Of a DNA stretch of 36,428 bases, positions 5,301 to 33,830 are shown in pieces. Made by a program: the position numbers and the translations under genes. Location of the stretch: NCBI GenBank assembly GCA_022711715.1, contig JAKLEC010000013.1, positions 1 through 36,428 on the forward strand, written 5' to 3'. The number at the start of each line of letters is the position of its first letter. Within the stretch, counting starts at the first letter, position 1. The notes under the pieces are model-generated. The model was given only the letters and a program-made list of their open reading frames with translations, had not been told where the DNA came from and ran no database searches. Origin of the DNA: Acidobacteriota bacterium (lineage in GTDB: Bacteria; Acidobacteriota; Aminicenantia; UBA2199).

Positions 5301-6899
5301 TTATGCTTTCCCGGCCTGGCCGGCGGCCAGGGCGAATTCTTCGGCGAAATTCTCCAGCGCGCTCCGCACCGGCATGACCAGCGACTGTCCCAGCGGGCAG
5401 AGCGAGGTTTTGAACATCGTCTCGGCCAGCTGCAGCATCGTCTCGGCGTCGCCGGCGCGGCCATGTCCCTGGCGGATGCGCCAGGCGATGTCCAGGATCT
5501 GCCGCGTGCCGACGCGGCAGGGGACGCACTGGCCGCACGACTCGTGGGCGAAGAACTTGGCGATGGAGAAGAGCATCTCGACGACCGACGCCGTCTCGTC
5601 CATCACCAGCACCGCCCCCGATCCCAGGACGGCCTTGTTCTCCTTCAGGCTCTCGAAGTCCATCTTCACGTCCAGCAGCTTCTCGGGGACGAAGACGCCG
5701 GCCGCGCCGCCCAGCAGCGCCGCCTTGAACTTCCGCCCGCCCTTGACGCCGCCGCCGAAGCCGAAGATGATCTCCCGCAGCGGCGTGCCCATGTCGGTCT
5801 CGACGAGGCCCGGGTACTCGACGTGGCCCAGCACGGTGAAGACCTTGGTGCCCGGGCACTTGTCGGTGCCGATGCGGCGGAACCAGTCGGCGCCGTTGGC
5901 CATGATCCCCGGCACGTTGGCCAGGGTCTCGACGTTGTTCACCGCCGTCGGCTTCTGCCACAAGCCGTGGGTCACCGGATAGGGCGGCTTGACGCGCGGG
6001 TTGCCGCGCTTGCCCTCCAGCGATTCGATCAGCGCCGTCTCCTCGCCGCAGACGTAGGCGCCGGCGCCCTTGCGGATCTCCAGCTCGAAGGAGAAGCCGC
6101 TCTCCAGGATGTTGTTCCCCAGCAGCCCGTATTGGCGGGCCTGGGCGATGGCCTTCTGCAGGCGGTCGATGGAGAGCCGGTACTCGCCGCGGATGTAGAC
6201 GAAGCCGCGGCCGGCGCCGATGGCGTAGCCGGCGACGGCCATGGCCTCGATCAGGCGGTGCGGGTCGCCCTCGAGGATCAGCCGGTCCTTGAAGGTGCCC
6301 GGCTCGCCCTCGTCGGCGTTGCAGACGATGTACTTCTCGCCGCCGGCCGCCTTGCGCGTGAACTCCCACTTCATGCCGGTGGGAAAGCCGGCGCCGCCGC
6401 GGCCGCGCAGCCCCGACTTCTTGATCTCCTCGATCACCGCCTCGGGGGGGAGCGCCTCGCGGAGGATCCTCTCCAGCCCGCGGTAGCCGCCGGCGGCGAT
6501 GATCTCGTCGATGTTCTCGGGGTCGACCGTCCAGGCCTTGTCCAGGACGATGCGCCGCTGGGCGCGGGTCAGGCCCACCTTGGGTCCGGGGACGGACGGG
6601 GAGACGGCGATGGCGGCATGGTCCAGCCCGGCGACCACCCGCCCCTTGAGCAGGTGCTCGTCGACGATGCGCGGCACGTCCGCCTCGCGGACGTTGAAAT
6701 AGTACATGCGGTCGGGATAGACGGCCAGGATGACGCCCTTGCCCACGATGCCCACGGTGCCGCTCTCCAGCACCTTGACCTCGTCGAGCATCTGGCGGAC
6801 GCTCAGCTCCTTTTCCAGCCGGCGCTTGACCTCGAACACCCCGGCCTGGGCCGTTCCCACGTCGACCGGCAGCAGCACGTGCGTGCGAAAGACGCTCAT
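5301..6899 (-). CDS. nuoF: NuoF-like NADH-binding diaphorase subunit of the formate dehydrogenase
   Basis: This is a 532-residue FMN/NAD(H)-binding 51-kDa-type subunit. The first ~100 residues form a thioredoxin-like domain that has lost its cluster cysteines. The FMN/NADH core contains GLRGRGGAGFPTGMKW and a CGEETALIESLEG stretch. The N3 [4Fe-4S] cluster is ligated by SCGQCVPCR and SLCPLGQS near the end. It lacks the C-terminal 2x[4Fe-4S] ferredoxin domain found in HydB/HndC of bifurcating hydrogenases, so it looks like a simple NAD(P)-linked diaphorase. The start overlaps the upstream nuoE stop (ATGA), which implies translational coupling and equimolar production. Being followed directly by fdhA, it most likely links formate oxidation to NAD(P) reduction. 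Confidence 0.9.
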   Translation of the reverse strand: MSVFRTHVLLPVDVGTAQAGVFEVKRRLEKELSVRQMLDEVKVLESGTVGIVGKGVILAVYPDRMYYFNVREADVPRIVDEHLLKGRVVAGLDHAAIAVSPSVPGPKVGLTRAQRRIVLDKAWTVDPENIDEIIAAGGYRGLERILREALPPEAVIEEIKKSGLRGRGGAGFPTGMKWEFTRKAAGGEKYIVCNADEGEPGTFKDRLILEGDPHRLIEAMAVAGYAIGAGRGFVYIRGEYRLSIDRLQKAIAQARQYGLLGNNILESGFSFELEIRKGAGAYVCGEETALIESLEGKRGNPRVKPPYPVTHGLWQKPTAVNNVETLANVPGIMANGADWFRRIGTDKCPGTKVFTVLGHVEYPGLVETDMGTPLREIIFGFGGGVKGGRKFKAALLGGAAGVFVPEKLLDVKMDFESLKENKAVLGSGAVLVMDETASVVEMLFSIAKFFAHESCGQCVPCRVGTRQILDIAWRIRQGHGRAGDAETMLQLAETMFKTSLCPLGQSLVMPVRSALENFAEEFALAAGQAGKA

Positions 6900-12718: not shown

Positions 12719-13078
12719 ATGGTGAAAGTCCGTGACATCGTGGCGCTGCTCGACGCCGAAGTGCTCTCCGGGGAGAGCAAGCTGGACGAGGAGGTGCGCT
12801 CGGCCGGCGCCAGCGACATGATCAGCGACATCCTGGCGCTGACCCAACCGGGCATGATGGTGCTCACCGGCTACACCTACCCCCAGGTCATCCGCTCGGC
12901 CCTGGTCACCGACCTGCTGGGGCTGATCGTGGTGCGCGGCAAGAATGTCGCCCCCGAGACCATCGCCTACGCCCGCGAGAACAACTTCCTGCTGCTGCGC
13001 ACGCGGGGCTACCTGTTCTCCTCCTGCGGCAAGCTCTTCGCCATGGGGCTGCGGGGCAGCGATGCCGGAAAAGAATAA
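12719..13078 (+). CDS. DRTGG-domain protein, second copy
   Basis: This is a 119-residue protein with the DRTGG-like core (VRSAGASDMISDILALTQPGM, then DLLGLIVVRGKNV). It is related in length and pattern to the protein encoded at 11,405-11,740 on the other side of the intergenic region. GGGGAGGA precedes the start. Its 3' end overlaps the next gene by 17 nt, so it is probably coupled to the CBS/ATPase protein. The family is common beside hydrogenase genes; the ligand is unknown. Confidence 0.75.
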   Translation: MVKVRDIVALLDAEVLSGESKLDEEVRSAGASDMISDILALTQPGMMVLTGYTYPQVIRSALVTDLLGLIVVRGKNVAPETIAYARENNFLLLRTRGYLFSSCGKLFAMGLRGSDAGKE

Positions 13079-14012
13079 CCAGCTCTCGCGCTACGCCGCC
13101 ATCTTCGAGGACATCCGCGCCGGCGACATCATGAGCACCAACGTGGTGGAGATCTCCGCCGAGAAGAAGATCGCCCACGCCAAGGAACTGATGAAGATCA
13201 AGAAGATCTCCGGCATGCCGGTGGTCGACGAGAACCGGCGCCTGGTCGGCATCATCAGCATCGAGGACATCATCCATGCCCTGGAGTTCAACAAGCTCAA
13301 CGATCCCATCCGCCGCCTGATGTCGCCCAACGTGGTGACCCTCCGCCGCGACGACCCGCTGCCGGCGGTGGTGAAGCGCTTCGAGAGCTACAAGTTCGGG
13401 CGCTTCCCGGTGGTCGACGACGACGGCCGCGTCTGCGGCATCATCACCAAGGACGACATCCTGCACGGCATCGTGGAAAAGTTCAACCTCATCTATATCC
13501 ACGACCAGCAGCGCACCCGCACCCTGAACGCCGAGTACTCGGCCATCACCGGCGAGCGGCTGAAGGCCGACGAGGCCAGCTTCCACTACCAGATCGACAC
13601 CGCCGACATCGACGCCGCCGGCAGCGGCGCCGCCATGCTGAAGCGCTACCTGGCGGGCAAAAACTTCCACAACGACATCGTGCGCCGCGTCGGCGTCGCC
13701 ACCTACGAGGCCGAGACCAACGTGGTCATCCACAGCAAGGGCCAGGGCGACATCTACTTCTTCCAGGACGAGGACCGCTTCATCGTGCGCGTGGTGGACA
13801 ACGGCGTGGGCATCGAGGACCTGGACAAGGCGATGAAGGAGGGCTACTCCACCGCCCCCGACCATGTCCGCGAACGCGGCTTCGGCGCCGGCATGGGCAT
13901 CGCCAACATGAAGCGCTTCGCCGACAAGCTGGTGATCATCTCCGAGAAGGGCGCCGGCACCCAGGTGGAGATGATCTTCTACCTTCCCACCCAAACCTGG
14001 CCTTTGATCTAG
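13062..14012 (+). CDS. CBS-pair protein with a GHKL (anti-sigma/histidine kinase-type) ATPase domain
   Basis: This 316-residue protein has two CBS domains (about 20-75 and 85-140; DIMSTNVVEISA, then RLMSPNVVTLRRDD). A linker and a GHKL ATPase domain follow (about 165-310) with N-box-like EAETNVVIHS, G1 VVDNGVGIED and G2 GFGAGMGIANM. There is no phospho-accepting His domain, so it resembles RsbW/SpoIIAB-type regulators rather than a sensor kinase. CBS pairs usually sense adenine nucleotides, which suits an energy-linked switch next to DRTGG proteins and a hydrogenase. The last ~8 residues (PTQTWPLI) lie within a 105-bp repeat present again 211 bp downstream, so the natural C-terminus may have been replaced. 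Confidence 0.82.
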   Translation: MPEKNNQLSRYAAIFEDIRAGDIMSTNVVEISAEKKIAHAKELMKIKKISGMPVVDENRRLVGIISIEDIIHALEFNKLNDPIRRLMSPNVVTLRRDDPLPAVVKRFESYKFGRFPVVDDDGRVCGIITKDDILHGIVEKFNLIYIHDQQRTRTLNAEYSAITGERLKADEASFHYQIDTADIDAAGSGAAMLKRYLAGKNFHNDIVRRVGVATYEAETNVVIHSKGQGDIYFFQDEDRFIVRVVDNGVGIEDLDKAMKEGYSTAPDHVRERGFGAGMGIANMKRFADKLVIISEKGAGTQVEMIFYLPTQTWPLI

Positions 14013-14090
14013 AAGCCAGAGGTTCCACGTACCACGTGCCACGTTCCAGGTTGAAAACGAGCATTCGGCATACGGTGTACGGCATACGGC
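13986..14090. repeat. 105-bp direct repeat, copy 1, overlapping a gene end
   Basis: It matches copy 2 (14197-14301) at about 102 of 105 positions. It spans the last codons and stop of the CBS/ATPase gene, a quartet of nnCCACG heptamers (14023-14050) and most of a five-unit CATACGG heptamer array (14062-14096). Confidence 0.9.
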
Positions 14091-14134
14091 ATAGGGTAGA
14101 AGCCCAATCACGATCTAGTTCTCAGAAGGTTTTA

Positions 14135-14164
14135 CCGTCCGCCGTGCGCCGTCGGCCGTCCGCC
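14135..14164. repeat. heptamer quartet CCGTCCG, inverted partner of the CATACGG arrays
   Basis: Four 7-nt units follow CCGTnCG. Read in reverse complement (CGGACGG) they resemble the CATACGG units on either side, so the array can fold back on the copies at 14062-14096 or 14273-14307. It lies between the two 105-bp repeats. Confidence 0.65.
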
Positions 14165-14196
14165 AATCACCATGAAGTGAAGATGACTCCTGCCTG

Positions 14197-14301
14197 CCCA
14201 CCCAGACCTGGCCGTTGATCTAGAAGCCAGAGGTTCCACGTACCACGTGCCACGTTCCAGGTTGAAAACGAGCATTCGGCATACGGTGTACGGTATACGG
14301 C
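14197..14301. repeat. 105-bp direct repeat, copy 2
   Basis: This second copy of the 3' end of the CBS/ATPase gene plus heptamer arrays is no longer attached to an open reading frame. Differences from copy 1 include single changes in the former coding part and one CATACGG unit altered to TATACGG. Confidence 0.9.
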
Positions 14302-14320
14302 ATACGGCTTCAGAAGCTTC

Positions 14321-14444
14321 AGGGAAGAGAGAGGGAAGCCAGAGAGAAAGGCAAAGGGAAGGCAGAGTGAGAAAGAAATTTTGATCGGGTTTTTTCCACT
14401 CTCTCTTCCCTCTTTCTTCCCTCGCTCTTCCTTTTATCTTCCCT
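14321..14444. repeat. purine/pyrimidine inverted repeat, AGGGAAG family, copy 1
   Basis: A purine strand of about 57 nt rich in AGGGAAG is followed by a short loop with a TTTTTTCCACTC stretch and a matching pyrimidine arm of CTTCCCT units. The arms can pair over ~50 nt. Unit spacing in the right arm is about 11 nt. With the repeats just upstream it fills the 560-nt gap before the M1 peptidase; no gene is seen there. Confidence 0.8.
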
Positions 14445-14572
14445 GAGCTCAATAAAGCTGTTGAAGTCGGCCGCCCTCTGCGCGTTCTCCGCCGTTCGCC
14501 TCGTTCAATAAACCGAAACTATTGTCCGGCGTTTCTCGTTTATTTAGCGATGAAATCCCCGGAGGTTCTCCC

Positions 14573-16711
14573 ATGAAGAAATCCCTGATCGCCACCCTCC
14601 TTCTTCTTCCGCTACTGGCCTTGGCTCAGGTCCCCGAGCCGGCCCGGGCTGCGGCAACAGGGGTAAACGCCGCTCCGGCGGCGGCTTCCGGGGGGATGCC
14701 GCTGCACTATGAGATCTGGGTCACGCTCGACCCGGAGCAGAAGATGCTGCACGGCCGCGAGGCCGTGCGCTGGACCAACACCAGCCGGGACACCGTCCCC
14801 GACATCTGGTTCCACCTTTACTGGAACGCCTTCAAGAACGAGGAGAGCGCCTTCATGCGCGAGGCGCGCCAGGAGGACTTCGGCGCCGACATGCACGGCG
14901 ACACCGACGTCAAGGACGGCGACTGGGGCTGGATCGACATCGACGCCATCCGCCTGAACGGCGGCGCCGACCTGAAGCCGACGATGGAGTTCATGCTCCC
15001 CGACCGGCCGCTCCACCCGCGCGACCAGACGGTCATGCGCGTCAGGCTGCCCAAACCGCTGGCTCCCGGAGAATCAGCCGACCTGCAGATCGCCTTCCGC
15101 GCCCGGATCCCCAGGACGGTCCGCCGCTCGGGCTACTACCACGACGGGTATTTCATCGGCCAGTGGTTCCCCAAGCCCGGCGTGTACCAGGAGGGCCGGG
15201 GCTGGAACTGCCACCAGTACCACCTGAACAGCGAATTCTTCGCCGACTTCGCCGACTTCAAGGTCCACATCACCGTGCCCGAACCATTCGTGGTCGGCGC
15301 CGCGGGGCGCGAGATCGCGACGCGCCGCGACGGCAAGGCCGGCACCGCCACCCACACGTTCGCCCAGGAGCGCATCCACGACTTCGCCTGGACCGCCGAT
15401 CCCGACTATGTCCGCCTCGAGCGCGACTTCGTCGCCGCCCGCGAGGTGAGCGAGGCCGAGTACCGCGAGGTCGCCGGCGCCCTGCGCCTGCCGGTCGACC
15501 AGGTCCGGCTTCCCGACGTCAGGATGGTCCTGCTGATCAACCCCGAGCACCGCGCCCAGGCGGAGCGGCACTTCAAGGCGCTGCGCGCGGCCCTGAAGTA
15601 CTACGGCCTGTGGTACGGCCCTTATCCCTACGCCCAGGTGACCATGGTCGACCCGCCCTTCCGCAGCGGCGCCGGCGGCATGGAGTACCAGACGCTGTTC
15701 ACCGCCGGCACCCGCGTGCTGGCCACGCCGCAGGCCAATGACCCGGAGATGGTGATCATCCACGAGTTCGGCCACGGCTACTGGTACGGCCTCGCGGCGA
15801 GCAACGAGTTCGAGGAAGCGTGGCTGGACGAGGGGATCAACACCTACTCCACCGGCAAGGTCCTGGCCAAGGCCTACGGCGCCGGCTCGGTGCCGCTGAA
15901 CGTCGCCGGCATCCCCCTCACCCGCTACACCGGCCCCTTCAAGTACTCCGACCTGGAGATGGACCGCATGGCCGCCGTATTCGCCGCCCGCCTCGACCCG
16001 GTGCAGACCGCCTCCTGGCGCTTTTCCTCGTCCATGAGCTACGCCATGAACGTCTATATGCGCGCGGCGACCAACCTGCGCACCCTGGAGAACCTAATCG
16101 GCAAGGAGGCCATGCTGCGGGTCATGCGCACGTTCCACACCCGCTTCCGCTTCCGCCATCCGACCACCCGCGACTTCATCGCCGTGGCCAACGAGGTCAG
16201 CGGCCGGGACCTGACCTGGCTCTTCGACGAGCTGTTCCTCTCCGCCCGGGAGTGGGACTACGGCGTGACCCGGGCCGGTTCCGCCGAGATCCGCGCGCCG
16301 CGCGGCGTCTTCGAGCGCCAGGGCAAAAGGAGCGAGGTCACGGGCAAGGCCGCCCGCGAACAGGACCGGAAAACCAAGGCGAAGCGGTACGCCACGCGCG
16401 TGCGCGTCGAGCGCCTCGGCGAGGCGCGCCCGGGCCCCGGCGTGAGGCTGAAAGTCCTGGTCGTCTTCGCCAACGGCGCGCGCAAGGTCGAGGAATGGGA
16501 CGGCCAGGGACGCTGGATCGACTTCGTCTACGAGGGCCCCAGCCGCATCCGCTATGCGCAGGTCGATCCCGACGCCGTGTTCCTCGTCGACCGCGACCTG
16601 AGCAACAACAGCTGCACGGCCGAGGCGCGCTCCGCCGGGCCCTTGCGCTGGTCGGCCCGGCTGCTCTTCTGGGTGCAGAACCTCCTGCAGTTCGCCGGCT
16701 CGCTGATCTAG
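14573..16711 (+). CDS. exported M1-family-like zinc metallopeptidase
   Basis: This 712-residue protein has a cleavable signal peptide (MKKSLIATLLLLPLLALAQ). It has an M1-type N-terminal beta domain (HYEIWVTLDPEQKMLHGRE). The exopeptidase-loop motif GGMEYQ lies near 368, and the zinc site is HEFGH (H397, E398, H401) with the third ligand E420 in NEFEEAWLDEG, giving exact HExxH-x18-E spacing. The C-terminal third is basic and less conserved and ends in a short hydrophobic segment (LLFWVQNLLQFAGSLI). It probably acts outside the cytoplasmic membrane in peptide scavenging. GGAGG stands 7 nt before the start. A membrane protein gene follows after 9 nt, so the two form an operon. Confidence 0.9.
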   Translation: MKKSLIATLLLLPLLALAQVPEPARAAATGVNAAPAAASGGMPLHYEIWVTLDPEQKMLHGREAVRWTNTSRDTVPDIWFHLYWNAFKNEESAFMREARQEDFGADMHGDTDVKDGDWGWIDIDAIRLNGGADLKPTMEFMLPDRPLHPRDQTVMRVRLPKPLAPGESADLQIAFRARIPRTVRRSGYYHDGYFIGQWFPKPGVYQEGRGWNCHQYHLNSEFFADFADFKVHITVPEPFVVGAAGREIATRRDGKAGTATHTFAQERIHDFAWTADPDYVRLERDFVAAREVSEAEYREVAGALRLPVDQVRLPDVRMVLLINPEHRAQAERHFKALRAALKYYGLWYGPYPYAQVTMVDPPFRSGAGGMEYQTLFTAGTRVLATPQANDPEMVIIHEFGHGYWYGLAASNEFEEAWLDEGINTYSTGKVLAKAYGAGSVPLNVAGIPLTRYTGPFKYSDLEMDRMAAVFAARLDPVQTASWRFSSSMSYAMNVYMRAATNLRTLENLIGKEAMLRVMRTFHTRFRFRHPTTRDFIAVANEVSGRDLTWLFDELFLSAREWDYGVTRAGSAEIRAPRGVFERQGKRSEVTGKAAREQDRKTKAKRYATRVRVERLGEARPGPGVRLKVLVVFANGARKVEEWDGQGRWIDFVYEGPSRIRYAQVDPDAVFLVDRDLSNNSCTAEARSAGPLRWSARLLFWVQNLLQFAGSLI

Positions 16712-16720
16712 GAGAACACC

Positions 16721-17605
16721 ATGTCGAACCTCAAGCTGTTCTCGAAGGCTCTCGGGACCACCGCCAGGCAGGGCCGGCTGGCCCTGCGCCTGTGGGCGAT
16801 CAACCTCCTGTTCTCGCTGCTGGTCGCCGCCCCGTTCGCCGTCGCCATCCAGGGCCAGGCCTCGCATTCGCTCGCGGCCGATTCTTTGCTGTCCCGGATG
16901 GACGTCGACTGGATGACCGACCTGGGCACCCGCTTCCAGGGGGCCGCGCCCCTGGTCATGGGCCTGCTGCTGGCGGCCCTGCTCCTGTACCTGCTGCTGG
17001 CCGTCTTCCTCAACGGCGGCGTCATCGGCGGCCTGCTCCGCCCCGGCGCGCGCCCGACCCTGGCCGAGTTCTTCCACGACTGCGGCTTGCATTTCTGGCG
17101 CTTCCTGCGGCTGTTCCTCCTCTCCATCCCCGTCTATCTCCTGTTCGTCGGCCTCCTGCACGGGCTGGTCGCGCGGCTGCTCCGGGCCCTCACGCGCCAG
17201 GCGGCGACCGAGTGGCCGGTGGTCGCCGCCAGCGTCCTGCGCCTGCTGGCGCTGCTCCTGCTGCTGGGGATCATCTCCATGTTCCTCGACTACATCAAGA
17301 TCGGGCTGGCCGCCGGCAAGCGGCGGGGCGTGCTCAAGGAGACCGGGCGGATGCTGAAGCTCGTCGGCCGGCGCTTCCTCAAGGCCTGGGGCCTCCACCT
17401 GCTGGCCGGGCTGGCGTTCGTGGCGCTGACGCTGCTCTATCTCGAGGTCGCCCGCGTCCTCCCCAAGGGGACGCCGCCGTTGCTCCTCGCCGTCTTCCTG
17501 TGGCAGCAGTTCTACGTCCTCGGCCGCCAGTTCAGTAAAATGCTGTTCTTCGCCAGCGAGATCGAGCTGTACAAGGAGCTCCAAGAACCGGCTCAGACCA
17601 CGTAA
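16721..17605 (+). CDS. polytopic membrane protein, function unknown
   Basis: This is a 294-residue protein with about five or six hydrophobic segments (for example INLLFSLLVAAPFAVAI, PLVMGLLLAALLLYLLLAV, FLLSIPVYLLFVGLLHG, LRLLALLLLLGIISMFL and LLAGLAFVALTLLYL). No family motif is recognised. It is co-transcribed with the M1-like peptidase upstream. Its TAA stop lies inside the first unit (GTAACGC) of the heptamer array that follows, so the array supplies the stop codon. Confidence 0.8.
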   Translation: MSNLKLFSKALGTTARQGRLALRLWAINLLFSLLVAAPFAVAIQGQASHSLAADSLLSRMDVDWMTDLGTRFQGAAPLVMGLLLAALLLYLLLAVFLNGGVIGGLLRPGARPTLAEFFHDCGLHFWRFLRLFLLSIPVYLLFVGLLHGLVARLLRALTRQAATEWPVVAASVLRLLALLLLLGIISMFLDYIKIGLAAGKRRGVLKETGRMLKLVGRRFLKAWGLHLLAGLAFVALTLLYLEVARVLPKGTPPLLLAVFLWQQFYVLGRQFSKMLFFASEIELYKELQEPAQTT

Positions 17606-17849
17606 CGCGTAACGCGTGACGCGTGACGCGAAAAAGCACGAATCGAAATCCTTGAACGCGAACTGCCTAACCCAGTGCCCGGCGAATTCCTTGCTTCGAT
17701 GAGTTTCACTATCGATTCAAAAGGAGAGAACGGCGACACCGACCAACTGGTTCTCTATATATGAAGTCCCATCACCAAGGGCGATAGAAGGAGACGAGTT
17801 CCTTCGTTACAGGGCTGTTTCTCGTCACGCGTCACGCGTTACGCGTCAC
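17602..17849. repeat. GTGACGC heptamer inverted pair with a 192-nt spacer
   Basis: The left arm (17602-17629) has four units: GTAACGC twice, then GTGACGC twice. The right arm (17822-17849) has four units of NCGTCAC, the third being GCGTTAC, followed by GATAG. Each left unit carries TAA or TGA, and each right unit carries them on the other strand. The spacer is less GC-rich than the genes and has no convincing ORF. A CAGGGCTGTTTCTCG stretch next to the right arm recurs, inverted, next to the left arm at 19955. Confidence 0.85.
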
Positions 17850-17867
17850 GATAGACCGTCGTTCTTC

Positions 17868-19949: not shown

Positions 19950-19954
19950 ATTCC

Positions 19955-20176
19955 GTGACGCGTAACGCGTGACGCGTGACGCGGAACAGCCCTGATTTGC
20001 CGATGTATTCTTCATGATCCATGCTCGTTTCTTTCTCCTTCACTCCAAGAAACCAGTTCCCGATGTTCTAATTTGGAAAAGCGAAAGAGACTCGCAGGAT
20101 TTCCTTTTCGATCGATTTCTTGGATAGGGTTCGTTCGTTTGCCGTTACTCGTCACGCGTTACGCGTCACGCGTCAC
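19955..20176. repeat. GTGACGC heptamer inverted pair with a 159-nt spacer
   Basis: The left arm (19955-19982) has units GTGACGC, GTAACGC, GTGACGC, GTGACGC. The right arm (20142-20176) has five NCGTYAC units followed by GATAG. It joins the 3' ends of two convergent genes: the peptidase stop is 5 nt before the left arm, and the amidotransferase stop lies inside the right arm. The spacer has no evident ORF. Confidence 0.85.
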
Positions 20177-20789
20177 GATAGTTCGCAGCCTCATGCTGAG
20201 CGATTCTCAGGAAATTAACGAGCAACCGCACTCCCAGCTCCCCCGACCGCTCCGGATGGAACTGGACGCCATACAGAGGGCGCCGGCGATGGACGATGGC
20301 CTCGACGAGGCCGGCGCCGCTCACGGCCAGCACGTGAAACTCGCGCTCCAGCGCGGCGTCGCGCACGACGATCTCCTCATGGCTCTCGTGCATGGGAAAG
20401 GCGGGGGGGAAGCCGGCAAAGAGCCCTGCCGCGGCGCCGGCGCGGACCTCCCCTGCGCCCAAATGCTTCGTGTCGTCGCGGCGCACCGTCGCGCCGAAGG
20501 CTCTCGCCAGCGCCTGGTGCCCGAAGCAGATGCCGAGCAGCGGCCGGCGCCAGCCGGCGAGGAATTCCAGCAGGGCCGTTCCCGCCTCGTTGTCGCCGAC
20601 CATCTTCTGCGATCCCGACACGATGGCGGCGGTGCCCATGTCCGGTTCAATCCGGTCGTCCCCGATTTCCATGGGCTCGATCACGATGCCGGCCGCTTCC
20701 GCGCCGGCGCGCAGCCAGTCGCGGTAACCCGCGATCTTGTCGCCCGACTGTTCCCGGTAGCAGTTGATCAAAAGCAGCTTCATGTTCAT
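20166..20789 (-). CDS. class I glutamine amidotransferase-like protein
   Basis: This 207-residue protein has the GATase1 fold. The nucleophile elbow is GICFGHQALARAFG with Cys88, and the His/Glu of the triad lie in YGVQFHPE near 175-182. The domain probably releases ammonia from glutamine, but no synthetase partner is encoded beside it, so the acceptor substrate is unknown (GuaA-like or gamma-glutamyl-hydrolase-like). The start chosen is the first of two near ATGs (MNMK). Its last codons (Tyr-Arg-Asp-Ala-stop) are read from the heptamer array at its 3' end. Upstream lie a good promoter and the three palindromes shared with the divergent AraC-type gene. Confidence 0.85.
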   Translation of the reverse strand: MNMKLLLINCYREQSGDKIAGYRDWLRAGAEAAGIVIEPMEIGDDRIEPDMGTAAIVSGSQKMVGDNEAGTALLEFLAGWRRPLLGICFGHQALARAFGATVRRDDTKHLGAGEVRAGAAAGLFAGFPPAFPMHESHEEIVVRDAALEREFHVLAVSGAGLVEAIVHRRRPLYGVQFHPERSGELGVRLLVNFLRIAQHEAANYRDA

Positions 20790-21533: not shown

Positions 21534-21656
21534 AGGGAAGAGCAAGGGAAAACAAAGGGAAAGGCAGAGGGAAGGCAGAGTGGGAAGAGTCGCGGACAGG
21601 GTTTTTTCCACTCTCTCTTCCCTTTCTCTTCCCTCATTCTTCCCGCCGTCTTCCCT
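21534..21656. repeat. purine/pyrimidine inverted repeat, AGGGAAG family, copy 2
   Basis: The left arm (21534-21588) has AGGGAAG-type units about 11 nt apart. The right arm (21605-21656) has CTTCCCT-type units 11 nt apart. The middle reads GGGTTTTTTCCACTC, as in copy 1. It lies between the AraC-type gene and the cyclophilin promoter. Confidence 0.8.
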
Positions 21657-21705: not shown

Positions 21706-22323
21706 ATGCCCAAGCGGAAAAAAACCCTGCTGACCTTCCTGTGCCTGGCGTTGGTGGCGGTGCGGCCTTTCGCAGCCCGCTCCCGCGCGTTGCCCGAGGC
21801 CGGCGGCGTGACCTGCCGCATCACGACCGATGAAGGCGAGATCCAAGTCCGCGTCTGCCCGAAGAAGGCGCCGGTCACCGCCGGCAACTTCCTGAGCTAC
21901 GTCGAAGCCGGGCTCTACGACGGCACAACCTTTTTCCGCGTCGTGACCCCGCAGAACCAGCCGAAAGACCGGGTGCGGATCGAGGTCATCCAGGGCGGCG
22001 ACGTCGACGAAAAGAAATGCTTCCCGCCCATCGTCCACGAAACCACGCAAATGACCGGCCTGAAGCACGTGGACGGGGCGATCTCCATGGCGCGCGATGC
22101 CCCGGGCACGGCCCGCAGCAGCTTCTTCATCTGCGTCAACGACCAGCCCGAGCTCGACTTCGGCGGCCGGCGCAACCCCGACGGCCAAGGCTTCGCCGTT
22201 TTCGGCCTCGTGGTCAAGGGCATGGAGGTCGTCCGCCGCATTCAGCGCCTGGAGGCGGACGGACAGACGCTCAATCGGCCCGTGAAGATCCTCTCCATCT
22301 CGCGAGTGAAAAGTGAATCGTGA
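21706..22323 (+). CDS. exported cyclophilin-type peptidyl-prolyl isomerase
   Basis: This is a 205-residue protein. A signal peptide (MPKRKKTLLTFLCLALVAVRPFAARS) precedes a cyclophilin domain: ITTDEGEIQVRVCPKKAPVTAGNFLSYVEAGLYDGTTFFRVV, then QGGD, then SMARDAPGTARSSFFICVND, then FAVFGLVVKGMEVV. It catalyses cis-trans isomerisation of prolyl bonds, here probably outside the cytoplasm. No ribosome site precedes the ATG, in line with a leaderless message. The last residues VKSES and the TGA stop are encoded by AGTGAAA heptamers. Confidence 0.92.
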   Translation: MPKRKKTLLTFLCLALVAVRPFAARSRALPEAGGVTCRITTDEGEIQVRVCPKKAPVTAGNFLSYVEAGLYDGTTFFRVVTPQNQPKDRVRIEVIQGGDVDEKKCFPPIVHETTQMTGLKHVDGAISMARDAPGTARSSFFICVNDQPELDFGGRRNPDGQGFAVFGLVVKGMEVVRRIQRLEADGQTLNRPVKILSISRVKSES

Positions 22324-22371
22324 GAAGTGAAAGAGTCTGCCATGAGTGCGGAAAGACCAGGCTCTTTCACT
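22305..22371. repeat. AGTGAAA element A with 46-nt core
   Basis: Four heptamers in register (AGTGAAA, AGTGAAT, CGTGAGA, AGTGAAA) lead into a 46-nt core at 22326-22371. The core begins AGTGAAAGAG, ends CTCTTTCACT and contains GAGTCT, CCATGAG and AGACCAG. The cyclophilin stop is in unit 3. Confidence 0.85.
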
Positions 22372-22462
22372 AGTAAACAGTGAAAAATGAAAAGTGAAAG
22401 AGTCTCACATGAGCCCTGAAAGACCAGGCTCTTTCACTTCTTCGCCTCTTTCACTTTTCACT
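22372..22462. repeat. AGTGAAA element B with 46-nt core
   Basis: The four left heptamers are AGTAAAC, AGTGAAA, AATGAAA and AGTGAAA. The core is at 22393-22438, with right-hand TTTCACT units to 22462. It directly follows element A and contains the ATG and first ~18 codons of the next membrane protein. Confidence 0.85.
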
Positions 22463-22996
22463 TGGCCGCAGCTGCTGCTGGGCGCGGCCGCGCTGTCGTT
22501 CTACGCCGTCCACGCCGTCACCTGGCTGCGGCGGGGCGTGCCGGGCGCCCTGCTCTGGGCCTGCCACCTTGGCTGCCTGCTGGTCGGCATCGCCGTCCTG
22601 GCGAGGCGGCCGGCGCTGAACGGCGTCGGCGTCCTCTGGCTGGTCCTGGGCAACCTGTTGTGGGCCGTCGACCTGGCCGCGGGCGGGGAATTCATCTTCA
22701 CATCGCCGCTCACCCATGTCGGCGGGCTGTCCATCGGCGTGTGCCATGCGCGGCGGGCCGGCTTCCCCAGGCGCAGCTGGCTGGCGGCGCTGGCCGGCAT
22801 CGCCGCCCTGCACCTGCTCTCCGGCTGGGTCACGCCTCCAGCGGAGAACATCAACGTCGCCTTCCGCGTCCATCCCAGCCTGCAGGGGATCGTGCCCGGC
22901 TTCCTGGCGTTCCGCATCCTGATGCTGGCCGCTTCGGCGGCCCTTTTCTATGCCGCCGAGCTGCTGATACGAAGAATAGTGAAAAGTGAAAAGTGA
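22409..22996 (+). CDS. small polytopic membrane protein with repeat-encoded ends
   Basis: This is about 195 residues with about five hydrophobic segments (LLLGAAALSFYAVHAVTWL, LLWACHLGCLLVGIAVLA, GVGVLWLVLGNLLWAVDLAA, WLAALAGIAALHLLSGWV and FLAFRILMLAASAALFYAAEL). No family is recognised with confidence. The first ~18 residues (MSPERPGSFTSSPLSLFT) are read from repeat element B and the last five (VKSEK) from element C. The true start may instead be a TTG near 22460 (Leu/Trp before PQLLLG); no good ribosome site supports either choice. The coding core is real, judged by hydrophobic periodicity and absence of stops. Confidence 0.6.
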   Translation: MSPERPGSFTSSPLSLFTWPQLLLGAAALSFYAVHAVTWLRRGVPGALLWACHLGCLLVGIAVLARRPALNGVGVLWLVLGNLLWAVDLAAGGEFIFTSPLTHVGGLSIGVCHARRAGFPRRSWLAALAGIAALHLLSGWVTPPAENINVAFRVHPSLQGIVPGFLAFRILMLAASAALFYAAELLIRRIVKSEK

Positions 22997-23061
22997 AAAG
23001 TGAAAGAGTCTCCCATGAGCCCTGGAAGACCAGGCTCTTTCACTTCTTTGCCTCATTCACT
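22978..23061. repeat. AGTGAAA element C with 46-nt core
   Basis: Four perfect AGTGAAA units (22978-23005) overlap the core 22999-23044 (GAGTCTCCCATGAGC, then CTGGAAGACCAG). A right-hand ATTCACT follows. The TGA in unit 3 ends the upstream membrane protein. Confidence 0.85.
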
Positions 23062-23068
23062 TGTAATT

Positions 23069-23152
23069 AGTGAAAAGTGAAGGGTGAAAAGTGAAAGAGC
23101 CTGCCACGAGTTCTGGAAGACCAGGCTCTTTCACTTTCTTGGCTCTTTCACT
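23069..23152. repeat. AGTGAAA element D with 46-nt core
   Basis: The left units are AGTGAAA, AGTGAAG, GGTGAAA and AGTGAAA. The core is at 23090-23135, with TTTCACT at 23129 and 23146 on the right. The minus-strand acetyltransferase stop (TCA on the plus strand, 23131-23133) lies in the right part. Confidence 0.85.
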
Positions 23153-23928
23153 TTTTTCATTCTGCGGGCGATCTTCTTCTTGATCTTCTCGTACTTGGGC
23201 GGCGGGCCGTTGCGCACTTCCCGGCCGTCGATGAACAGGGCGTCGCTCATCCCCCACTCCAGGAAGACGGGGCGGTCGTCGGTGCGGATCTCGTGGAATT
23301 CCACCGGCGGCCCAAGCTCGGAGGCGGCGCGCCGGGCCCGTTCGTGCACCAGGCTCATGGCCGGGCACCAGCCGTTGAGCAGGCCGGTGACCTTCACCTT
23401 GCCCGCTTCGCCCTGGGGTTTTTTTCTTGGCCGGATCCATTTTGGCGCCATGGCATCGGCGGCGAAGGGCTTCCACATCAGCGCCGTCATGCCCATGGCG
23501 TCCGCCTTGCGGTAGCCGTGCCTGCGGAACCAGGAGGCGCGCATCCAGAAGGGCAGCGTCACTCCCCAGGCAGCCATGCCCCTGGCGCCCAGCGCCCGGG
23601 CGTCGGCCTCGGCCTCTGCCAGCAGAGCCGTGCCCATCCCGCGCTTGCGGAAGTCGCCCCGTCCCTGCGGGTGGCCGTGCACCCAGATGCAGAGAATGAA
23701 ATAGAGCCCGCTGCCCTCGGCCGGCGACTGCTCGATGGGCAGGTACTGGATCATGCCGCCGGCCGTGCCCCTGTCGTCCACGGCCAGCTTGACCCGCAGT
23801 CCGCTGTCCTTGTGGCGCTCGTACCACTCGCGCTTGTGGCTGCCCGCTTCGCGGATCTCGTCCGACCACTCCTCGAGGCACAGGCAATACTCTTCCGCGT
23901 GTTCCGGCGTCAGGTCGATGATCCTCAT
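23131..23928 (-). CDS. GNAT-family N-acetyltransferase with C-terminal extension
   Basis: This is a 265-residue protein. The N-terminal half is a GNAT fold (MRIIDLTPEHAEEYCLCLEEW; acetyl-CoA loop RKRGMGTALLAEAEADARALG, near 95-115). The C-terminal half resembles YoaP-type extensions (GLLNGWCPAMSLVHERARRAASELG, FHEIRTDDR, WGMSDALFIDG), with a Cys in a thioredoxin-like context. The substrate is unknown. The start follows GAGGC. The C-terminal VKEPRK and stop are encoded by repeat element D: the first heptamer is read through in another frame and the next one stops translation. Confidence 0.8.
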   Translation of the reverse strand: MRIIDLTPEHAEEYCLCLEEWSDEIREAGSHKREWYERHKDSGLRVKLAVDDRGTAGGMIQYLPIEQSPAEGSGLYFILCIWVHGHPQGRGDFRKRGMGTALLAEAEADARALGARGMAAWGVTLPFWMRASWFRRHGYRKADAMGMTALMWKPFAADAMAPKWIRPRKKPQGEAGKVKVTGLLNGWCPAMSLVHERARRAASELGPPVEFHEIRTDDRPVFLEWGMSDALFIDGREVRNGPPPKYEKIKKKIARRMKKVKEPRK

Positions 23929-23944
23929 GCAAGCCTCAGAAAAA

Positions 23945-24059
23945 AGTGAAAAGTGAAAAGTAAAGAGCGAAAGGGTCTTCCATGAGTCCTGGAAGCGTAG
24001 TCTCTTTCACTTCTTTGTCTCTTTCACTATTCACCTCTTGGGCTCCTTCACTTTTCACT
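23945..24059. repeat. AGTGAAA element E with 46-nt core
   Basis: The left units are AGTGAAA, AGTGAAA, AGTAAAG and AGCGAAA. The core is at 23966-24011 (GGGTCTTCCATGAGTCCTGG, then TCTCTTTCACT), more diverged than A-D. Several TTTCACT-like units follow on the right to 24059. The minus-strand oligopeptidase stop is within the right arm. Confidence 0.8.
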
Positions 24060-26177: not shown

Positions 26178-26240
26178 GATGCTCCTCATGGCTCGGCTCC
26201 GATTATAGCCAATTCGTGAAGTCAACTCCAGAACGAGCAC

Positions 26241-26444
26241 AGGGAAGAGAAACGGAAAAGCAGAGGAAAGTCAAAGAGAAAGATGGAGTGGGAAAGAAAT
26301 CCTGACAGGGCTTTCGCCATTTTCTCTTTTTGAAGCTTCGTTCCATTGCTGTTGCTAACACAAACACAAACACTAACACTTGAAAGGACTTTTCCCACTC
26401 TCTCTTCCCTCCTTCTTCCCTCATTCTTCCCTCTCTCTTCCCTG
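26241..26444. repeat. purine/pyrimidine inverted repeat, AGGGAAG family, copy 3
   Basis: The left purine arm (26241-26298) and right pyrimidine arm (26391-26444, with CTTCCCT units exactly 11 nt apart) flank about 90 nt that includes a nested hexamer quartet. It occupies most of the gap between the divergent oligopeptidase and acetyltransferase genes, and no gene is seen in it. Confidence 0.8.
26357..26380. repeat. hexamer quartet AACACA/AACACT
   Basis: Four 6-nt units (AACACA twice, AACACT twice). The preceding ~35 nt (TCTTTTTGAAG ... TGCTGTTGCT) matches the flank of the quartet at 12044, so a longer unit is dispersed. Confidence 0.7.
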
Positions 26445-26486
26445 GAGCCCTTTTCCCTCCTGCCGTACGTCGAGTTCGTTTCTTCC

Positions 26487-26514
26487 TCGTCACTCGTCAC
26501 TTGTTACTCGTCAC
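26487..26514. repeat. heptamer quartet TCGTCAC
   Basis: Four units, the third being TTGTTAC, the same 'third unit TTAC' pattern as the right arms of the GTGACGC elements. No left arm is present nearby. Confidence 0.75.
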
Positions 26515-26561
26515 GGCTGATCCTTTCACAGCGGTTGTCGTGTGCCGAGCCCTGCCGGCCC

Positions 26562-26591
26562 TTGACTTTTCGCATCCGCCCCCTGTACAAC
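26562..26591 (+). promoter_or_regulatory. sigma70-type promoter of the small acetyltransferase, apparently leaderless
   Basis: TTGACT and TACAAC are separated by 18 nt. Only 6 nt lie between the -10 box and the ATG at 26598, and no ribosome site precedes that ATG. Confidence 0.6.
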
Positions 26592-26597
26592 TAGGCG

Positions 26598-27047
26598 ATG
26601 AAAAACGGCGAAGGGTTCTTCGTCCGCGACTACTGGGCCGCCGACTTCCCTCACGTGGCCGAGATCTGGGAGAGATCGGGGATCAGCACTCCGGGGCGGG
26701 GGGACAGCGCCGAGGTGATCGAGAACACGCTGCGCCGCAACGGCCGGCTGCTGGTGCTGGTCGACCGCGACCGCGACACCGTGGTCGGCACTTCCTGGCT
26801 GACCAACGACGGCCGGCGCCTCTACCTGCACCATTTCGCCATCGCCCCCGAGTGCCAGGGTCTGGGGCTGGCCAAGCCCCTGCTGCGCGAGTCGCTGAAG
26901 ATCGCCAAGACCGTCGGCCTGCAGGTGAAGATCGAGGTGCACCGCGACAACCACAAGGCCCTGGACCTGTACCGCAAGGCGGGATTCAAGCGCCTCGGCG
27001 ACTACGACGTCATGATCATCCGCGACCTGAGCGACATCAAAGAATAG
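26598..27047 (+). CDS. GNAT-family N-acetyltransferase
   Basis: This 149-residue protein spans a complete GNAT domain. Beta strands with YLHHFAIAPECQGLGLAKPLLRESL form the acetyl-CoA-binding region (near 88-112). IEVHRDNHKALDLYRKAGFKRLGDYDVMI is the C-terminal signature. The shape is that of RimI-like or small-molecule acetyltransferases; the substrate is unknown. It has its own, apparently leaderless promoter and is followed 7 nt after its stop by a CGTACGG heptamer array. Confidence 0.88.
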   Translation: MKNGEGFFVRDYWAADFPHVAEIWERSGISTPGRGDSAEVIENTLRRNGRLLVLVDRDRDTVVGTSWLTNDGRRLYLHHFAIAPECQGLGLAKPLLRESLKIAKTVGLQVKIEVHRDNHKALDLYRKAGFKRLGDYDVMIIRDLSDIKE

Positions 27048-27054
27048 GGCATGG

Positions 27055-27075
27055 CGTACGGCGTACGGCGGAAGG
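27055..27075. repeat. heptamer array CGTACGG
   Basis: Three units (CGTACGG twice, then CGGAAGG), related to the arrays at 14062 and 34496. The following 27076-27193 is unique sequence without a convincing gene. Confidence 0.6.
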
Positions 27076-27193
27076 AAGAAAAACCGAACAGTCCGTCGAG
27101 GCTCCACGCTGACGGCCCTGCCAGGGGCGGCGTCCCCAAGGGTTGCCCCAATTGGGCTACACGACATCTGAATAACCTAACAGTCCGCCGAGG

Positions 27194-27214
27194 TTCCACA
27201 TTCCACGTTCCATG
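27194..27214. repeat. heptamer array TTCCACG
   Basis: Three units (TTCCACA, TTCCACG, TTCCATG), the same family as the nnCCACG quartet at 14023. The AACAGTCCGCCGAGG stretch before it recurs with small changes near 27087. Confidence 0.6.
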
Positions 27215-27308
27215 TTTTGTAGTAAAGCCAATTCAAGGCGCGGAGAAAACATTGGATTGTTTTACCGTGATTCGTGATCCGCAACAGCGAGAGATTCCGG
27301 CTGTTGCG

Positions 27309-27326
27309 AACACGAATACGAACATG
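27309..27326. repeat. hexamer array AACACG
   Basis: Three units (AACACG, AATACG, AACATG) preceded by GCTGTTGCG, as before the quartets at 12044 and 26357. Confidence 0.5.
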
Positions 27327-27352
27327 TAGATCCCGTGGAATTCCTTTTTGCT

Positions 27353-27376
27353 GGCACTGACACTGTCACTGACACC
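27353..27376. repeat. hexamer quartet GACACT
   Basis: Units GGCACT, GACACT, GTCACT, GACACC. The third unit is the variant, as in the neighbouring quartets. Confidence 0.55.
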
Positions 27377-27392
27377 AGGATTTGCTTCTTCC

Positions 27393-27420
27393 TCGTCACT
27401 CGTCACATGTCACTCGTCAC
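27393..27420. repeat. heptamer quartet TCGTCAC
   Basis: Four units with the third altered to ATGTCAC; nearly identical to the quartet at 26487. Confidence 0.75.
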
Positions 27421-27442
27421 TATAGCTCATTGAGTTTCCTGC

Positions 27443-27466
27443 TACCACTACCACTATCACTACCAC
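27443..27466. repeat. hexamer quartet TACCAC
   Basis: Four units, the third being TATCAC. With the arrays before it, this completes a 450-nt gene-free stretch built largely of short phased arrays. Confidence 0.65.
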
Positions 27467-27483
27467 TTATTCGGTCCTTCGGC

Positions 27484-27499: not shown

Positions 27500-28303
27500 A
27501 TGAAACTCGAGCCCCATCACCATTCGTTCACCGTGCCGGAGCGGGAGGGAGAATCGCCGCTCATGCGCCTGCTGGCCGTGCTCGAGGAGATGATGGAGAC
27601 GGCCGGCCGCCACGCCGAAGCGCTGGGGGTGGGGGTGCGCGACCTGCACGCCAAGGGGCTGACCTGGGTGCTGGCCCGCCTGCACGCCCGCGTCGCCTCC
27701 ATTCCCGTTCCCGGCGCCGCCGTGGATATCGCCACCTGGCCCTGCGGCCGCCACCGCCTGTTCGCCGTGCGCGAGTTCCAGCTGCGCGACGCCGCGGGCG
27801 CCGAGATGCTGCGCGCCACCAGCGCCTGGGCGCTGATGAACCTGGAGAGCCGGCGCCCGGCACGCCTCGACCCGCACCTTCCCGATTACGGCCCCTGCCC
27901 GGAGCGCATGGTCGCGGACGATTTCGTTCCGCTGCCCCCGCCCCATCCCGGCTCGCCGCAGCGCTTGTTCCATGCCCAGGCGGACGACATCGACCTCAAC
28001 GACCACGTCAACAACACGGTCTACCTGGGCTGGGGGCTGCGCTCGGCGCCGGAGGCCGTGAATTCCTGGCCGATCGCCTCGCTGGAGGCGGCCTTCCTGG
28101 GCGAGGCACGGTTGGGCGACGGGGTCGCCTGCCTGACCGAGATCGGCCGGGCCGCCGCCCCGGCCGCCGGGCCCGTCCCCGGGAGCGCCGTGCTGCTGCA
28201 GAGCCTGCGTCTGACCGCCGGCGACCGCGAGCTGACCCGGCTGCGGACCCTGTGGCGCACCCAAGGCGCAGGGAAAACAGAGGGAAGAATAAGGGAAGAG
28301 TGA
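27500..28303 (+). CDS. acyl-ACP thioesterase (FatA/FatB-like)
   Basis: This 267-residue double-hotdog protein is like bacterial acyl-ACP thioesterases. It hydrolyses acyl-ACP to free fatty acid in the cytoplasm. The second hotdog carries the signature DIDLNDHVNNTVYLGWGL (near 158-175), with the Asn and His of the family's catalytic site. The N-terminal hotdog has WVLARLHARV and VDIATWP. The C-terminus GKTEGRIREE and its stop are read from 11-nt AGGGAAG units, so the native end has probably been replaced or extended. Confidence 0.85.
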   Translation: MKLEPHHHSFTVPEREGESPLMRLLAVLEEMMETAGRHAEALGVGVRDLHAKGLTWVLARLHARVASIPVPGAAVDIATWPCGRHRLFAVREFQLRDAAGAEMLRATSAWALMNLESRRPARLDPHLPDYGPCPERMVADDFVPLPPPHPGSPQRLFHAQADDIDLNDHVNNTVYLGWGLRSAPEAVNSWPIASLEAAFLGEARLGDGVACLTEIGRAAAPAAGPVPGSAVLLQSLRLTAGDRELTRLRTLWRTQGAGKTEGRIREE

Positions 28304-28394
28304 GGGAAGAGAAAGTGAAAAAAGCATTTTCAGAACCTCTTTTCCACTCTGTCCTCCCTCTGCCTTTTCCTCTGCCTTCCCTCTCTCTTCCCTT
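28270..28394. repeat. purine/pyrimidine inverted repeat, AGGGAAG family, copy 4
   Basis: The left arm begins with four exact 11-nt units (AGGGAAAACAG, AGGGAAGAATA, AGGGAAGAGTG, AGGGAAGAGAA). The right arm (28340-28394) is the pyrimidine counterpart. The thioesterase stop (28301-28303) spans the third and fourth units. Confidence 0.85.
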
Positions 28395-33521: not shown

Positions 33522-33540
33522 AACAACAGGACGAATGCTC

Positions 33541-33756
33541 GTGACGCGTAACGCGTGACGCGTGACGAGAAACAACACTGACCGAACCTGGTTTGGGAGG
33601 ACATTCGCTGAAAAGCATTGATGATCGGAATTTTAATCAACCAGCTGCCTGGTATGCTGCGACGGCTCGCATGATTCGTCCAGGCTCTCCTTGAATCCTG
33701 ATCGAGCCGATCACTTCATTGCAGCTACTTGTCACGCGTCACGCGTTACGCGTCAC
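33541..33756. repeat. GTGACGC heptamer inverted pair with a 160-nt spacer
   Basis: The left arm (33541-33568) has GTGACGC, GTAACGC, GTGACGC, GTGACGA. The right arm (33729-33756) has four NYGTYAC units, the third GCGTTAC, followed by GATCG. Unlike the other copies it lies between two divergent gene starts. The spacer (33569-33728) is less GC-rich than the flanking genes and has no evident ORF. Confidence 0.85.
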
Positions 33757-33830
33757 GATCGTCCCACGCCAATCCTTTACTGTCTTGATACAATATGATA
33801 GAAAATGCACTTGCGCAAGGAGGATCTGCC

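Follow-up and report, generated by a model that had tools for sequence, protein, structure and literature searches.

A direct repeat carrying a gene end and its heptamer arrays in an intergenic spacer of Candidatus Aminicenantes

The DNA analyzed here is a 36,428-nt contig (C35; hereinafter the window) of the metagenome-assembled genome (MAG) G000 (2.09 Mb, 138 contigs, 82% complete), and all features described below are given on its plus strand. The window contains a gene for a 316-residue protein with a CBS pair and a HATPase domain (13062-14012; Pfam CBS, 1.3e-32; HATPase_c_2, 4.1e-10), which terminates in LPTQTWPLI and a stop codon and has 11 readable orthologues in the genus. The end of this gene, together with two arrays of 7-bp units, recurs 211 bp downstream in the spacer that follows. 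The named relatives of the protein belong mainly to Candidatus Aminicenantes or Acidobacteria MAGs, with one labelled Chrysiogenales, and the host is a Candidatus Aminicenantes MAG. Comparisons within the genus were made on a set of 16 genomes, G000 included.

Three of 105 sites (13994, 14003 and 14083) distinguish positions 13986-14090 from 14197-14301 (97.1% identity), in agreement with a preliminary description of the DNA, which had reported a 105-bp duplication with copies 211 bp apart, about 97% identical and carrying the last nine codons of the gene and two heptamer arrays. In a self-comparison the ungapped repeat extends to 121 nt (copy 1, 13976-14096; copy 2, 14187-14307; 94% identical), and blastn stretches it to 13965-14096 and 14177-14307 (93.2%). 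Copy 1 comprises the true gene end with nine codons including the stop (13986-14012), a CCACGTN array (14025-14052) and a GGCATAC array (14061-14093). The latter is a left arm, whose complementary right arm, an array of CCGTCCG units, lies at 14135-14164 and pairs with it in the fold. The corresponding arrays of copy 2 are located at 14236-14263 (CCACGTN) and 14272-14308 (GGCATAC, a left arm without a right arm). The tail in copy 2 (14197-14223) lies outside any gene and the reading frame upstream of it is not intact; copy 2 is non-coding and probably functionless. The copies are separated by 90 bases (14097-14186) that copy 2 lacks and that are also absent from the available part of the matching spacer in the sister genome G004. 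The arrangement, previously called tandem, is a genuine direct repeat with 211-bp spacing and unrelated bases between the copies, and not a strict tandem. The same self-comparison on 400 kb of a same-class genome returned no local repeat of at least 50 bp, arguing that the repeat does not reflect chance. A third, decayed copy within 14097-14186 was also considered and is unsupported, as 109 of 500 shuffled sequences score equally high.

The gene tail was examined in orthologues from the 15 other genomes of the genus. The C-terminus is readable in 11 of them (G007, G008, G010 and G012 gave no full-length orthologue), and all 11 carry the tail, eight as exact LPTQTWPLI (G004, G015, G002, G001, G014, G009, G006 and G011) and three with one or two substitutions (G013, G005 and G003). 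The tail is missing from all 10 orthologues checked outside the genus, with an eleventh, L053, left out. No second tail was found in the spacers of 10 genus relatives, G001 having no spacer sequence and the available sequence being cut short by contig ends in G004 (139 bases) and G002 (165 bases). Judged from these orthologues, the tail is native to the CBS/HATPase gene. The native tail and the single tail in the relatives contradict one suggestion of the preliminary description, that the tail came with the repeat, and support the other, an outward copying of the gene end along with the arrays. No remodelling at the gene end, which had also been proposed, was seen, and the functional C-terminus is unchanged. 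With two close, highly similar copies in G000 and single copies in the relatives (partial spacers in G002 and G004, none in G001), the repeat belongs to the local segmental duplications.

G000 and G004 group as sisters (support 1.000) and their copies of the gene differ at 26 of 951 positions (97% identical). In G004, an incomplete MAG, the gene end and arrays occur once and are joined directly to the right flank of copy 2. By itself, this single copy suggests a gain in G000, but the codons of the tail and a piece of the segment between the copies point to an older duplication. At three third codon positions (13985, 13994 and 14003), copy 1 and G004 share T, A and T (CTT/CAA/CCT), and copy 2 has G at all three (CTG/CAG/CCG), like the nearest outgroups G002 and G011; G015 and G001 agree with copy 2 at two of the three. 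All three changes are synonymous, with copy 2 of the ancestral type and the state common to copy 1 and G004 derived. At 14083 and 14094, G004 is identical to copy 2. Matching copy 1 on the left and copy 2 on the right, the G004 sequence resembles what recombination between two copies, or a collapse during assembly, would produce. A 19-nt piece (14176-14194) in the inter-copy segment agrees with the corresponding G011 spacer at 18 of its 19 bases, a match equaled in none of 500 shuffles and in none of nine other spacers. A 15-base pattern inside it occurs in 2 of the 16 genus genomes, both times at this spacer; the motif was picked after the match had been seen, which makes all these figures somewhat favorable.

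In 432 kb of G000 there are 18 local duplications, defined as direct repeats of 50 bp or longer with copies no more than 700 bp apart; 170 kb of G004 contain 8 and 400 kb of G015 contain 5, compared with 0 in 400 kb of G059, an array-poor genome of the same class that lacks period-7 arrays. In G000, 16 of the 18 are mostly intergenic, and the array-base share of the 13 merged cases is 0.25, versus 0.08 in random intergenic segments (2000 draws, p 0.0005). The repeat described here accordingly belongs to a class of such duplications and is an ordinary event in the turnover of array-bearing spacers; its special feature is the gene end taken along.

We favor, with a probability of roughly 0.7, a local duplication in this array-rich spacer that would predate the split of G000 and G004, one copy having later been lost from G004 or collapsed in its assembly. 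In this event the final nine codons of the gene, the stop, the CCACGTN array and the GGCATAC left arm would have been copied 211 bp downstream, with the left junction at a short CCTGCC match and the right one within the GGCATAC array. From these junctions and their setting we infer that the mechanism was likely replication-associated template switching or slipped-strand repair at the hairpin-forming arrays. The copying probably preceded the separation of the two lineages, after which G004 would have lost 211 bp through recombination between the copies, unless its assembly collapsed them.

Several observations weigh against this account. The dating relies on only five substitutions across an alignment of 112 bases (13985-14096), and a more distant relative, G014, also has CTT/CAA/CCT, so parallel change is possible at these sites. 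Positions 14013-14082 are identical between the copies while G004 differs there at four places; this identity alone would favor a recent duplication or a later homogenization. The G004 spacer is known for 139 bases, the contig ending inside an 11-bp array, and a further copy may lie beyond. G000 is itself a MAG without read support for the repeat, and the association between arrays and duplications may partly reflect the easier self-alignment of arrays. The microhomology at the junctions spans very few bases, and its precise position is uncertain, as the bases to the left of copy 2 also resemble the gene (score 23, 2 of 500 shuffles); a pseudogene extension of the gene at this place was considered and set aside, the G011 spacer giving a stronger match (score 33, 0 of 500). 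Gene conversion between the copies was considered as well, since the differences in 13985-14012 are all synonymous and 14013-14082 is identical; with two further differences in the last 14 bases, the contrast is weak and conversion is not needed.

The same identity over 14013-14082, together with the single copy in G004, would also fit a recent gain, in which recombination added a segment with an older tail allele to G000 after the split and G004 kept the original single copy. We consider this unlikely, though not negligibly so, because it requires a donor combining G000-like arrays with the older codons, and because the inter-copy piece found only in the matching G011 spacer suggests that the segment is old at this locus. 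An assembly artefact that chained two strain variants of the gene end into one contig is improbable: the fragmentation of the MAG into 138 contigs and the different synonymous codon set of copy 2 speak for it, yet the broken frame upstream of copy 2 shows that it is not simply the gene end of another strain, and similar local duplications occur in two other genomes of the genus. That the copied block is a mobile element including the gene tail, resembling a miniature inverted-repeat transposable element (MITE) or a repetitive extragenic palindromic (REP) sequence, is highly improbable despite the inward-facing array arms and the Y1-type transposase matches (PF01797) in 15 of the 16 genus genomes, since the tail is part of the gene itself, matches elsewhere in G000 are confined to the arrays and never span the entire block, and G004, an array-rich though incomplete MAG, has no Y1 match.

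The arrays taken along by the duplication belong to a much larger population. In 432 kb of G000 there are 90 runs of period 7, versus 0 in shuffled sequence, and periods 6, 14 and 11 account for 31, 19 and 9 runs, respectively. Arrays of periods 6, 7 and 11 together cover 8.3% of intergenic bases but 0.3% of bases in open reading frames (ORFs), as called by a simple script, so that the 7-bp period exceeds shuffled expectation and is mainly intergenic, as befits heptamer arrays. Matches to the GTRAC family number 209 in G000, 194 in G004, 128 in G015, 57 in G002 and 54 in G006. Beyond the genus, the 28 genomes sampled from its family or class have none. At least one match was found in 18 of the 264 remaining genomes of the phylum sample, and a reversed control pattern matches other genomes of the phylum, indicating that other 7-bp arrays exist there. 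About ten period-7 unit families coexist, some as inward-facing inverted pairs.

In the stretches compared between G000 and G004, 11 spacers cannot be aligned between well-aligned flanks, and nine of them carry arrays in both genomes. By our reading of these arrays, five have the GTRAC core with another spacer dinucleotide or with other families beside it, three have different families and one has a shared unit; these spacers were chosen as non-aligning and yield no overall rate. Array families are replaced by one another at some matching spacers between the sister genomes. The proposal that the repeat offers a snapshot of array spread accordingly stands in part: the copying did move the left arm of one array family, but replacement at matching spacers is not explained by one duplication. 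A relationship between array position and gene direction was dropped, as arrays were few in divergent spacers in G015 (4 of 70) and not in G000 (25 of 115), with crude gene calls.

GTRAC arms lying at most 400 bp apart in three genomes form 30 inward pairs, 1 outward pair and 4 same-direction pairs, the fixed polarity expected of MITE inverted repeats. By comparison, the copied CCACGTN array was found in only one direction in the sampled part of G000. An inverted partner within 350 bp accompanies 43 of 115 arrays in G000, 25 of 70 in G015 and 12 of 40 in G004 (1, 3 and 0, respectively, at random places), implying that most arrays have no recognized partner. Example elements fold into long stems, a result without shuffled comparison. 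The conserved interior of a MITE is lacking, since nine GTRAC elements, compared by eye and unaligned, are unlike inside; no clear target-site duplication was seen by eye at GTRAC elements, and no transposase is linked to the arms. It is conceivable, and we offer it only tentatively, that the genus spacers hold several sequence-unrelated families of hairpin elements with 7-bp (some 11- or 6-bp) periodic arms of fixed inward polarity, whole elements being exchanged between sister species at corresponding spacers, as though the mechanism fixed the period rather than the sequence; the duplication would then be a by-product of it.

Other parts of the window contain related structures. Inward CGTRACG arrays bracket spacers at 17600-17850, 19953-20177 and 33539-33757, with unlike interiors of ~160-200 bases, and the G004 spacers matching the first and last of these carry other array kinds or sub-kinds. 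Downstream of copy 2, inverted arms with an 11-bp period (AGGGAAGNNNN and its complement) occupy 14321-14444 and represent a dispersed hairpin element that also occurs at 21534-21656, 26403-26443 and 28280-28393; the copies at 14321-14444 and 28280-28393 have many G004 relatives at ~80-86% identity. A unit of ~90 bases that combines AAAAGTG arrays with an inner GAGCCT/AGGCTC hairpin is present several times at 22305-23153 and 23941-24058, arranged in tandem and around an ORF without a Pfam match. Six-base-period arrays (e.g., GACACT and ACACTA) are nested with 7- and 11-base ones at 26180-27480 and in L106 at 6100-6250.

The CBS/HATPase gene is immediately preceded by a DRTGG-domain gene, ahead of which lies a desulfoferrodoxin/rubrerythrin-like gene (window 12719-14009), and is followed by a gene for an M1-family peptidase (14573-16711; Pfam Peptidase_M1, 6.2e-13). 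Rfam gave no match in the window. In 13900-14620, a scan for a stem-loop and T run, covering loops of 3-8 only, returned no intrinsic terminator, and no sigma-70 promoter consensus was found.

These results indicate that, in an uncultured lineage, pieces of gene ends can travel along with spacer arrays, and that a single-copy sister need not represent the ancestral state. Genus-wide array families whose units change at matching spacers would make a good natural system for studying the birth and replacement of short-period arrays. A literature search found no published account of such arrays in Aminicenantes. Heptamer spacer arrays are already known in other bacteria and the duplication itself is ordinary; what deserves further attention is the set of array families. 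Intergenic heptamer tandem repeats have been described as TAACTGA in Beggiatoaceae (PMC4679880) and as GGGAATC in Xanthomonas and GGGGAYT in Nostoc (PMC4692102), those of Xanthomonas varying in length and sequence among related species at the same gene pairs (PMC4692102). As presented in the portions of these papers drawn on here, they share with our arrays the 7-bp unit, the mostly few copies per array and the dispersal through spacers (PMC4679880, PMC4692102). Each, however, is centred on one main unit, whereas the present genus has about ten period-7 families, some as inward-facing inverted pairs. In Geobacter metallireducens, paired tandem octa- and heptanucleotide sites of classes 1-4 have been read as binding sites of global regulators (PMC2700814). 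Like our arms, these are short tandem units paired on opposite strands at variable distance; the units differ, and turnover between sister species is not described in the parts of that account covered here (PMC2700814). BrickBuilt, a MITE with a minisatellite in Porphyromonas gingivalis, likewise combines intergenic tandem repeats with inverted-repeat ends, as far as the consulted part of its description goes (PMC4596501), whereas the interiors of the elements described here look unlike one another.
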